This document shows, piece after piece, positions 19,388 to 30,779 of a stretch of 64,000 bases of DNA. The notes beneath the pieces are model-generated. The model was not told the origin of the DNA and ran no database searches. It saw nothing but the letters and a program-made list of their open reading frames with translations. The translations under genes and the position numbers were made by a program. Position 1 is the stretch's first letter; each line of letters begins with the position of its first letter. This stretch comes from Halarchaeum grantii (lineage in GTDB: Archaea; Halobacteriota; Halobacteria; Halobacteriales; Halobacteriaceae): contig NZ_BMPF01000001.1 in the NCBI RefSeq assembly GCF_014647455.2, positions 62,001 through 126,000 on the forward strand. Direction: 5' to 3'.

Positions 19388-20149
19388 TCAGTACTCCTCG
19401 TCCTCGACGGAGTCCTTCCGGCCGTTCCCCTCGATGTGCCACCGCGCGCGGCGCAGGATGCCGTGGAGGGTGTTGACCTCGCGGCCCGTGGGGTGTGCGC
19501 GCCCGAGGATGCGCCGGACCATCCGCCCGGTCTTCGCCTGCTTCTCCTCGGGGTAGTCGACGAGCTCGAGGAAGTCCGCGAAGTGGTCGTAGAACGCCTC
19601 TATCTCCTCCTCCTTCGCGCGGTGGACCGCGACGTCGGGGAGTTGGGTCTCGTCGACGGTCAGCTCGCGCAGTTCGTAGAGCGCGACCGTCGCGGCCTGC
19701 CCGAGGTTCAGGACGGGGTAGTCCGCGCTCGCGGGGATCGAGCTGATCTCGTCGAGGCGCTCCATCTCGCTGTTGTGGAGGCCGACGCGCTCGCGCCCGA
19801 AGACGAGGCAGGTCGGGGCCTCGACGTCGCGGAGGCTCCCCGCGAGTTCGTCGGGCGTGCGGAACGGGAAGCGGACGTGCTTCGTCGCGTCCTCGTTCGT
19901 GATGGCGGTGAAGCCCACCGTGTGGAAGTTCTCGACGAGGTAGTCGAACTCGACCTCCTCGGCCTCGGGGAGGATGTCCTCTCGCGCCTGCCCGGCGAAG
20001 CCGTACGCCTCGGACTCCCGCGAGAGGTCGGGCGGGTCGACGAGGTAGAGGTCGCTGAATCCGAAGTTCTTCATCGCGCGAGCGATCGTGCCGACGTTCC
20101 CGGGCGTCTCCGCGTCCACGACGGCGACGGCGGGCGCACTGTCTCCCAT
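19388..20149 (-). CDS. TrmJ-like SPOUT RNA methyltransferase
   Basis: 253 residues. N-terminal VAVVDAETPGNVGTIARAMKNFGF and the knot region LVFGRERVGLHNSEM, then IPASADYPVLNLGQAATVALYEL, are the three SpoU/TrmH motifs; the C-terminal helices match TrmJ. Family members methylate the 2'-O of nucleotide 32 in tRNA; that exact target is inferred. Start at 20149 is supported by gtttttactc about 29 bases upstream on the minus strand. Confidence 0.88.
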   Translation of the reverse strand: MGDSAPAVAVVDAETPGNVGTIARAMKNFGFSDLYLVDPPDLSRESEAYGFAGQAREDILPEAEEVEFDYLVENFHTVGFTAITNEDATKHVRFPFRTPDELAGSLRDVEAPTCLVFGRERVGLHNSEMERLDEISSIPASADYPVLNLGQAATVALYELRELTVDETQLPDVAVHRAKEEEIEAFYDHFADFLELVDYPEEKQAKTGRMVRRILGRAHPTGREVNTLHGILRRARWHIEGNGRKDSVEDEEY

Positions 20150-20310
20150 GCTCCCCGGGTAGCCGCCGCGCGAGTAAAAACCGCGCGTCACGACGCGACC
20201 GAGCGCCGCGCGGCACGTAGTGCGACGGCGGGCGCACTCTGCTACGCGTCACCGTCCCGAGGCGGCGACGGACCACGGGTACTATTGTAGTGGCACCCTC
20301 GCACCCACGT

Positions 20311-21435
20311 ATGAACACCGTGGACGCCGCCGGCCTGCGAATCGGCGACGACCACCCCCCGCGAATCATGGGGGTGTTGAACGTCTCGAAGGAGTCGCCC
20401 TATTCGCCGAGCGTCTTCGACGACCCCGACGAGGCCGCCGCCTACGTCGATGACGAACTCATCGGCGAGGGCGCGGACATCGTCGACGTCGGCCTCGAAT
20501 CCGCGAACAAGCGCTTCGAGGTGCTGAGCGCCGAGGAGGAACTCGACCGCCTCGACACCGCCGTCGAGACCATCGAGCGCGTCGAGGGCGACGCGGTCTT
20601 CAGCATCGAGACGCGCTACGCCGACGTCGCGGACGCCGCCCTCGAGGCCGGCTTCGACATGGTCAACGACATCTGCGGCTTCGCGGACCCGGAGATGCCC
20701 GCCGTCTGCGAGGCCCACGACGCCGCCGTCGTGAAGATGGCGTCCCCGCCGGACCTCGAACGCCCCGGCGCCGTCGAGGCGGTCGACGACATCTACGAGG
20801 CGCTCGGGCGCAACGGCCTCACGGAGAAGACCATCGTCGACCCCGCCTTCGGCGGGTGGTCCGAGGCGAAGACGCTCGCGGACGACCGCGAGACGTTTCG
20901 CCGCCTCCGCGAGTTCCGGGGGTACGGCCAGCCGATCCTCGTCTCCATCAACCGGAAGAACTTCCTGCGCGACGTCGCCGGGCGCGCCACCGAGGAGGCC
21001 CTCCCCGTCTCGCTCGCCGCGACCGCGATGGCGGTCGAGCGCGGCGCGCACGTGATTCGAACGCACGACGTCGCGGAGACCCGTGACGCCGCGCTCATCG
21101 GGTCGGAGTTCGCGCGCGAGCGACACCGCGAGCGCGCCGTCGAGGAGCTCGACGTCACCACCCCGAAGGAGGCCGAGCGCCACATCGACCGCCTCGAGGG
21201 CGACCGCGCGGCCGCCGAGGCGAGCGTCGCGCGCGCCTACGAAGTTCGGCCGCCGTCTGACAGGCGACAGACGCTCGTCGACGTCGCGGCGGACACCGGC
21301 GTCGTCTGTACGGGCGGCGAGGACCTCTTCGTTGCGGGGACGGTCGCCGACCTCGAAGTGTTCGCTGACCGCCTCACGCAGGCGTCGAAGGCGTTAGCGG
21401 GCGTCGCGGGCGAGATCCGATCGAGTCTCCGGTAA
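20311..21435 (+). CDS. folP: Dihydropteroate synthase
   Basis: 374 residues. The pterin-binding barrel begins PPRIMGVLNVSKESPYSPSVF, followed by GADIVDVGLESAN and VNDICGFADPEM; a K-x-R-like loop is replaced by VSINRKNFL, and HVIRTHDV closes the barrel. The C-terminal extension of about 100 residues (from EELDVTTPKEAERHIDRL) is longer than in bacterial FolP and is unassigned. It joins p-aminobenzoate-type side chain to the pterin in folate/methanopterin-type cofactor synthesis. ATG at 20311 preferred over GTG at 20290. MptE lies downstream, making a pterin cluster. Confidence 0.85.
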   Translation: MNTVDAAGLRIGDDHPPRIMGVLNVSKESPYSPSVFDDPDEAAAYVDDELIGEGADIVDVGLESANKRFEVLSAEEELDRLDTAVETIERVEGDAVFSIETRYADVADAALEAGFDMVNDICGFADPEMPAVCEAHDAAVVKMASPPDLERPGAVEAVDDIYEALGRNGLTEKTIVDPAFGGWSEAKTLADDRETFRRLREFRGYGQPILVSINRKNFLRDVAGRATEEALPVSLAATAMAVERGAHVIRTHDVAETRDAALIGSEFARERHRERAVEELDVTTPKEAERHIDRLEGDRAAAEASVARAYEVRPPSDRRQTLVDVAADTGVVCTGGEDLFVAGTVADLEVFADRLTQASKALAGVAGEIRSSLR

Positions 21436-21463
21436 CGGGAAAGCTTATGCCGAAAGCACCGCA

Positions 21464-21551
21464 ATCCCGGACTGGAGGCCGAGCCCCCGCATCGGTAGGG
21501 GTACACTACAACTGCGGGGCCTCGGCTCGAACCACCAGGTTCCGGATTTTT
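21464..21551 (+). ncRNA. Candidate structured RNA or leader between folP and mptE
   Basis: Nested base pairing can be drawn by eye. Outer stem: ATCC/GGA/CTGG (21464-21475) with CCAG/TCC/GGAT (21535-21547), one bulge on each side. Inner stem: 14 bp at 21478-21491 with 21513-21526, one mismatch. Apical stem: GTAG/CTAC around a 7-base loop. Five T residues (21547-21551) follow the closing helix, 26 bases before the mptE GTG. A cttatg box lies at 21444-21449. No tRNA, C/D or H/ACA signature found. It may be a regulatory leader, terminator or independent RNA. Confidence 0.5.
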
Positions 21552-21577
21552 CCCGACGCAACGGTGGTGAGCGATAG

Positions 21578-22258
21578 GTGAACTTCGCGGAGTGGGCGCC
21601 CGCCTACGAGGCGATCCTCGCGGACTTCGAGTACGACAGAACGGGCGACGAAGCCGCGCGTGACGAACTCGCACGACTCGTGAGCGACTTCGACGTCTCG
21701 CGCCTCGACGCGACCGGGGAGACAGTCGCCGTCGTCGGCGCCGCGCCCCGGCTCGTGGATGACCTCGACGTCGCCGCGGACGCCGACCGGGTGTTCGCCG
21801 CCTCCACCGCCGCCGACGTCCTGCGCGAGCACAGCATCGACGTCGACGTCCACGTCACGGACCTCGACAAGAACCCGGAGACGAGTCGCGCGCTCACCCG
21901 CGAAGGGACGCCCGTCGCCGCGCACGCGCACGGCGACAACCGCGGGCTGGTCGCGGAGTGGCTCCCCGAGTTCGACGACGCGCACGTCCTCGGGACGACC
22001 CAAGCCCGACCGGTCGACGGCGTCCACGACTTCGGCGGCTTCACGGACGGCGACCGCGCGGCGTTCCTCGCCGACCACGTCGGCGCGGCGTCGCTCGTCT
22101 TCGCCGGCTGGGACTTCGCGGACGCCCCGAGCGAGGCGAAGCGTCACAAGCTCCAGTGGGCGGCGCGCCTCCTCTCGTGGCTCGAACGCCGGCGCGGCGA
22201 GACGTACGGCGTTCTGGACGGCTACCGCGACACCGCGTGGCTCGACGCGCTCGGCTGA
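21578..22258 (+). CDS. mptE: 6-hydroxymethyl-7,8-dihydropterin pyrophosphokinase MptE
   Basis: 226 residues of the DUF115/MptE family. NFAEWAPAYEAILADFEYD, GETVAVVGAAPRL, and the metal/nucleotide region VDVHVTDLDKNPE are characteristic, with AHAHGDN further on. The enzyme activates hydroxymethyl-dihydropterin as its diphosphate, the substrate of dihydropteroate synthase encoded just upstream. The start is GTG, preceded by ggtggtgag-like purines. A short GGCCC-gaa-GGGCC hairpin overlaps the region just after the stop. Confidence 0.88.
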   Translation: MNFAEWAPAYEAILADFEYDRTGDEAARDELARLVSDFDVSRLDATGETVAVVGAAPRLVDDLDVAADADRVFAASTAADVLREHSIDVDVHVTDLDKNPETSRALTREGTPVAAHAHGDNRGLVAEWLPEFDDAHVLGTTQARPVDGVHDFGGFTDGDRAAFLADHVGAASLVFAGWDFADAPSEAKRHKLQWAARLLSWLERRRGETYGVLDGYRDTAWLDALG

Positions 22259-30704: not shown

Positions 30705-30779
30705 GCTCTGGTGGTGTAGTCCGGCCAATCATCTTGCCCTCTCACGGCAAGGACCAGGGTTCGAATCCCTGCCGGAGCA
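30705..30779 (+). tRNA. tRNA-Glu (CTC anticodon)
   Basis: 75 nt. Acceptor stem GCTCTGG pairs with CCGGAGC (one G-U), discriminator A. Anticodon loop CTCTCAC carries CTC at 30741-30743 within stem TTGCC/GGCAA. T arm is CAGGG-TTCGAAT-CCCTG. The 3' part, from 30738, is repeated perfectly at 55498-55541, so this gene is the attachment site of the integrated element. Confidence 0.96.

Follow-up and report, generated by a model that had tools for sequence, protein, structure and literature searches.

Our computational analysis of the gap between folP and mptE in Halarchaeum grantii points to a conserved haloarchaeal RNA, either an sRNA or the leader RNA of mptE, that is probably a base-pairing regulator, with a loop predicted from sequence comparison to pair with the 5' end of the mRNA of the S-layer glycoprotein gene (csg). 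The S-layer is often the sole cell wall of haloarchaea. More tentatively, and with somewhat less than even confidence, we suggest that this conserved RNA, usually a folate-gene leader, may, in most haloarchaea, bind the S-layer mRNA at its 5' terminus and so tie cell-wall synthesis to folate-operon expression, with loop and target having coevolved letter by letter throughout the class.

The stretch analyzed (the window) comprises 64,000 nucleotides of contig NZ_BMPF01000001.1, positions 62,001 to 126,000. In it, the dihydropteroate synthase gene folP (20290-21435, plus strand; TIGR01496, 165.8 bits; PF00809) is followed by an mptE-like gene (21578-22258, plus strand; PF01973, 57.2 bits), with 142 bases between them. 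A TATA-like box, AAAGCTTATG (21440-21449, plus strand), is conserved in relatives and would serve as the promoter of the RNA. Based on the spacing from this box, a U5 tract, and the match of our covariance model R2 (G000:C1:83463-83543, G000 being the window genome; window positions 21463-21543), the RNA is predicted to extend on the plus strand from a start near 21474 to the end of the T-run at 21551. An earlier reading of the DNA, made from its letters (the sequence-only reading), had noted a T5 run 26 bases before the GTG of mptE (21578); the run is indeed there, at 21547-21551 on the plus strand, at just that spacing, and may act as a terminator. No Rfam family reached its gathering score in the gap, where the single match was a chance-like miRNA hit (E 3.5), and a tRNA scan found none in the gap, with tRNA-Glu at 30705 as its only hit. 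Divergent from folP lies a gene for a TrmJ-type RNA methyltransferase (19388-20191, minus strand).

The 14-bp stem with one mismatch and the apical hairpin described in the sequence-only reading are both present in the sequence. On the plus strand, helix P1 pairs GGCCGAG (21477-21483) with CTCGGCT (21521-21527) and helix P2 pairs CCCCGCA (21485-21491) with TGCGGGG (21513-21519), with the C/C mismatch 21484/21520 between them. The loop spans 21492-21505, its core (21494-21504) is GGTAGGGGTAC (GGUAGGGGUAC), and the apical loop sequence, (G)GGUAGGGGUAC, is near-invariant among relatives. In an alignment of 60 sequences (58 distinct), 88.2% of the cells of this inner hairpin are paired, compared to 77.1 ± 0.7% in shuffled and 30-45% in slid controls, and 124 cells are doubly changed, compared to 45. 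Compensatory changes in relatives, which the sequence-only reading had proposed as a check, occur in both helices: both sides have changed at 11 of the 17 hairpin pairs, four to five pair types are seen at single positions of P2, and one pair of the hairpin appears as AU, GC, CG, UA, and GU without ever being broken. The hairpin element is a structured RNA whose pairing lies far above chance. Fold energies compared with dinucleotide shuffles agree (z of -2.40 for the 142 nt on the plus strand and -3.53 for the 82-nt core), and the minus strand of the gap folds well too (z of -3.67), because any inverted repeat would do so.

The outer closing helix of 11 pairs that had also been claimed was rejected: only 9 pairs with a bulge could be written, the helix does not form when the window sequence is folded to minimum free energy, and in 25 relatives 60.9% of its cells are paired, compared to 58.1 ± 1.6% after shuffling and 62.2% when slid by -3 columns. 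Moreover, judging by the TATA-like box at 21440-21449, the RNA would begin downstream of most of this helix's 5' strand. Among the 60 relatives folded, the distance from promoter box to loop core is 43 to 50 nt, mostly 44 to 46, and this constancy suggests that the hairpin forms the 5' end of a transcript that probably starts at its own promoter. Neither a small upstream ORF beginning at the hairpin, whose frames and start codons vary among relatives (by eye), nor a kink-turn or box guide RNA, whose motif does not fit (by eye) and which has no Rfam match, was retained.

The element is conserved well beyond the window's genus. With the gap alone as the query, BLASTN matched 12 of the 26 genomes of the family; mptE was found in 25 of the 26, and all 25 carry the promoter box and hairpin upstream of it. 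In the class, our initial covariance model (R1) had matches in 265 of 391 genomes. At 20 distant R1-matched loci, the RNA stands upstream of mptE on the same strand in every case, and it is present at 16 of 20 mptE-upstream loci from R1-unmatched genomes, once with a variant loop. A further model, R2, for which 60 sequences were used, reached 349 of the 391 genomes and 73 of 86 genera. Across 294 genomes of the phylum there were 51 matches. Of these, 49 fall within the order of the window; the other two, weak matches outside the class, lack the core and were dismissed. Five spurious matches were removed from the sequence set before counting, and L090, with its variant loop, was left out of alignment A4. 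The core set, in which 36 of 99 sequences were aligned, excludes L170 and L181, which are unlike RNA genes, and L164, which bears the csg site of G007 on the opposite strand; L129 was discarded because the core is absent. By eye, the sequence upstream of the element at L036/L038 differs from the usual folP end. A 16-letter pattern had 28 matches among the viral sequences of IMG/VR, mostly with short stems; they were treated as chance since about 38 were expected (estimated by hand).

The RNA is usually a single copy upstream of mptE and on the same strand. This arrangement favors the interpretation given in the sequence-only reading, a cis riboswitch or attenuator of mptE that senses pterin or folate, as does the observation that, upon loss of the RNA, mptE abuts folP and has no promoter of its own. 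Among 20 R2-negative genomes, 18 lack the promoter box and core, one locus is masked, and one (G112, locus L120) has the RNA upstream of mptE with an altered loop, GGGTAGGGGCCAAC; folP precedes mptE in 16 of the 20 genomes, and in L120 the RNA lies between the two. We also scanned 39 genomes with a model of the core alone (R3); in the 23 that are R2-negative and without standalone copies its best matches had E values of 0.08 or worse and did not show the full core. In several RNA-less genomes (L109-L128), the folP match ends near residue 275, and the C-terminal part of the window's 381-aa FolP is apparently missing.

Copies outside the pterin genes weigh against such a riboswitch. The pattern CGGGTAGGGGTACNYG has 101 sites among the matches listed, in 70 of 146 genomes, compared to 5 for the reversed-pattern control, on which kind of control our chance expectation for sequence patterns rests. 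Many of these sites are away from mptE. At most of the 32 non-mptE sites that we read, a hairpin is accompanied by a promoter box, frequently ACAAAGCATTTAT, and by a T-rich tract, and the neighbors differ or are convergent; these sites appear to be standalone RNA genes. The 20-letter form of the pattern, among named genomes, occurs in 24 stretches, all of Halorussus, Haladaptatus, or Halomicrococcus, with up to three per genome and some on plasmids (L201, L213, L217, and L218, in Halomicrococcus, Halorussus, and Haladaptatus). Three genomes of genus g53 (G136, G332, and G651) keep standalone copies; in G332 and G136, the mptE-upstream region lacks the RNA, and both standalone copies and csg site are kept. 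In genus g3, a standalone-type copy at L165 and L193 precedes a ThiF/MoeB-like gene (UbaA-like by eye), about 100 nt past the core; this gene apparently has its own promoter box and is absent after the L166 copy.

A riboswitch is an aptamer in cis of the genes of one pathway, and copies away from pterin genes depart from this. Further, RNA and mptE are anywhere from about 25 to 250 nt apart in relatives, no Rfam riboswitch matches, and the conserved loop is accounted for by csg, being the exact complement of the predicted 5' end of the csg mRNA and covarying with it. The sequence-only reading was right in seeing a structured RNA with compensatory changes, but its pterin or folate control was not supported, and we regard a riboswitch or attenuator of this kind as very unlikely; an additional cis effect on mptE could still coexist with csg pairing. 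The S-layer-pairing reading leaves the placement of the RNA at mptE, as a strict rule, unexplained.

The csg partner came to light among weak R3 matches on the opposite strand, where promoters precede a sequence exactly complementary to the loop, and the genes behind them encode proteins with a haloarchaeal surface-glycoprotein signal peptide. Searching 146 genomes for a promoter followed by GUAC(C/U)CCUACC gave 43 sites, spread over 41 genomes, and the reversed-pattern control gave none. All 30 loci that we read have an S-layer glycoprotein-type ORF about 70 to 140 nt downstream (with start codons of our choosing), and each of the eight ORFs scanned matches both TIGR04207 (surface glycoprotein signal) and the S-layer glycoprotein model, the latter below its whole-protein cutoff because only N-terminal parts were scanned. 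The csg sites read are all in complementary orientation and about 23 to 26 nt past the promoter box of the S-layer gene, which would place the pairing site at or near the 5' end of the csg mRNA. The csg of Hbt. salinarum has a 111-nt leader. In the window, all 14 nt of the loop at 21492-21505 are matched base for base by complementary sequence in the 5' region of an S-layer glycoprotein gene that the same genome carries outside the window (G000:C2:488598-488642, minus strand). Many S-layer 5' regions (for example, L279, L286, and L297) share a second conserved stretch past the pairing site, CATGGTGRCAGTANNGAGTA.

Loop and S-layer site also covary between the two molecules; this and conserved complementarity to the target mRNA are the features by which a base-pairing sRNA is recognized, and both are observed here. 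The window genome combines loop GGUAGGGGUAC with the site GUACCCCUACC in both of its S-layer-type genes, and with the first of these its RNA is complementary over 14 bases, one pair being C-G in place of the G-C of other genera. Three genomes of the window's own genus (G003, G004, and G005) have the loop GGUAGGAGUAC and the S-layer sites GUACUCCUACC. In G037, the loop GGAUAGGGG meets the site CCCCUAUCC, G030 combines the common loop with CCCCUAUCC as a G.U intermediate, and G029 and G068 have CCCCUGCCC, a G.U-compatible change. When loops and sites were crossed, the G003-G005 loops formed 13 to 14 Watson-Crick pairs with the sites of their own group and 6 to 7 with those of G000, and the G037 loop formed 10 with its own site, 9 with that of G030, and 5 to 6 with others. 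The reverse direction is softer, with 11 to 13 Watson-Crick pairs between the G000 loop and the variant sites and 10 to 13 for the common loop; since the common loop pairs with variant sites via G.U, the change in G003-G005 proves specificity in one direction only.

The same sites could be read as DNA, with a transcription factor binding an operator, GGGTAGGGGTAC/GTACCCCTACCC, near the starts of csg and of the RNA gene in opposite orientations, and with the RNA complementarity incidental. Both sites do lie shortly past a promoter box, GTA-N4-TAC is itself a small dyad, and a ACAAAGCATTTAT-like box is common to standalone copies and csg. However, the stems that flank the loop show the covariation of an RNA hairpin, with G.U pairs included, for which an operator has no need; every csg site read is complementary in orientation; and core changes in csg sites mostly keep the RNA pairing, through G.U or a matched change. 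We therefore hold an operator to be unlikely.

Pairing between RNA and csg is reinforced by their co-occurrence. Because our larger set of 42 RNA-bearing genomes was mostly selected by the complement pattern, only genomes found by S-layer profile rather than by site provide a fair test. There were 30 of these: 20 with the RNA, comprising 16 missed by the site pattern and four (G001, G003, G004, and G122) outside the pattern search, and 10 with neither mptE-linked RNA nor standalone copies, of which G060, G169, G221, and G104 have no recognizable S-layer gene start and were not counted, nor were the second genes L337 (G184) and L345 (G094). The site is kept in 20 of 20 RNA-bearing genomes compared to 0 of 6 RNA-lacking ones (Fisher 4.3e-6, or 9.1e-5 if G026 is counted as having a site, the genomes being related and the counts thus not independent). 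All 20 loops form 9 to 14 contiguous Watson-Crick pairs with their own S-layer 5' region, and the six RNA-lacking genomes with a recognizable gene show 3 to 8 contiguous pairs; the 8 pairs of G026 lie at another place. Among RNA-bearing genomes, G001/G002 and G034 have shorter pairing (9 to 10 Watson-Crick pairs). The S-layer 5' region reads GACGTACTGCCCGCTGCTAGTCGGG in RNA-lacking G084 compared to GATGTACCCCTACTGCCCGCTGCTGGTCGGG in RNA-bearing G001, so that only the complementary bases are gone from an otherwise similar region. Net binding, estimated for 18 pairs with the cost of opening both partners included and loop geometry outside the estimate, ranges from -9.4 to -19.5 kcal/mol, with 4 to 8 kcal/mol for opening the loop. 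Standalone hairpins have a loop of only about 12 nt, and the full 12 pairs may therefore not form.

Taken as a base-pairing regulator of csg, the RNA would be made from the promoter just past folP, and its 5' part, the hairpin, would present the loop GGGUAGGGGUAC. At or close to the 5' terminus of the csg mRNA (ACCCCUACCC...), this loop could form 9 to 14 contiguous Watson-Crick pairs with it. In the cell, occlusion of the csg 5' end would presumably reduce ribosome loading and thereby set S-layer synthesis, for example, by growth phase; as a second choice, pairing might have the opposite sign and shield the csg 5' end from exonucleases. Since pairing is symmetric, abundant csg mRNA might instead bind the mptE leader and regulate mptE, and csg is the most expressed gene in Haloquadratum according to the part of PMC5496347 available to us. 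Yet G070, which is likely a Haloquadratum, lacks the RNA, and standalone copies without mptE would be purposeless, which makes this reverse direction extremely unlikely.

With csg as the regulated partner, the RNA is a candidate cause of the translational repression of csg described for stationary-phase Hfx. volcanii, with repression factors of 1.1 (exponential) and 3.9 (stationary) (PMC3225822, 2007, available in part). S-layer mRNA fragments are the most enriched transcript in extracellular vesicles of the same species, as stated in the accessible portion of PMC10927574. The accessible portions of these two papers propose no RNA regulator of csg, and within the partly accessible open-licence literature we came across no sRNA described as acting on the S-layer mRNA of haloarchaea. 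The pairing of RNA and csg would give a directly testable handle on S-layer control.

Bacterial sRNAs such as Streptococcus FasX bind mRNA 5' ends. The pairing predicted here resembles that of FasX, the partner in both cases being the 5' end of a message whose product is displayed on the cell surface or secreted; FasX belongs to another domain of life, and the likeness lies in the place of pairing. Within the archaea, Methanosarcina mazei sRNA162 (PMC3510493) and Hfx. volcanii sRNA132 (PMC6560208) are similar in that they are small RNAs whose presumed targets are mRNAs encoded elsewhere in the genome. Unlike these, as far as the available parts of both papers describe them, the present RNA is shared, along with its target site, by most of a class; it would pair where the mRNA is predicted to begin, usually precedes mptE, and has the S-layer as its target. 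In the available part of PMC3956466, haloarchaeal sRNAs are called poorly conserved, with 22 of 27 confined to Hfx. volcanii; the conserved ones, H225.2R, hts10, and htsf359, found in 19, 18, and 12 further genomes (Table 5), are like the present RNA in their conservation and are listed there with function unassigned. Structured leaders are likewise described as not typical of haloarchaea (PMC4983044, available in part). Both pictures would change with an RNA that, like its covarying target, extends across the class.

In most species the RNA is encoded directly before mptE, and it would be either an sRNA ending at the T-rich tract or a leader on the mptE transcript. At both mptE-type and standalone loci, a motif like AGCGACAGC lies 25 to 50 nt past the hairpin, often right before the start codon of mptE.
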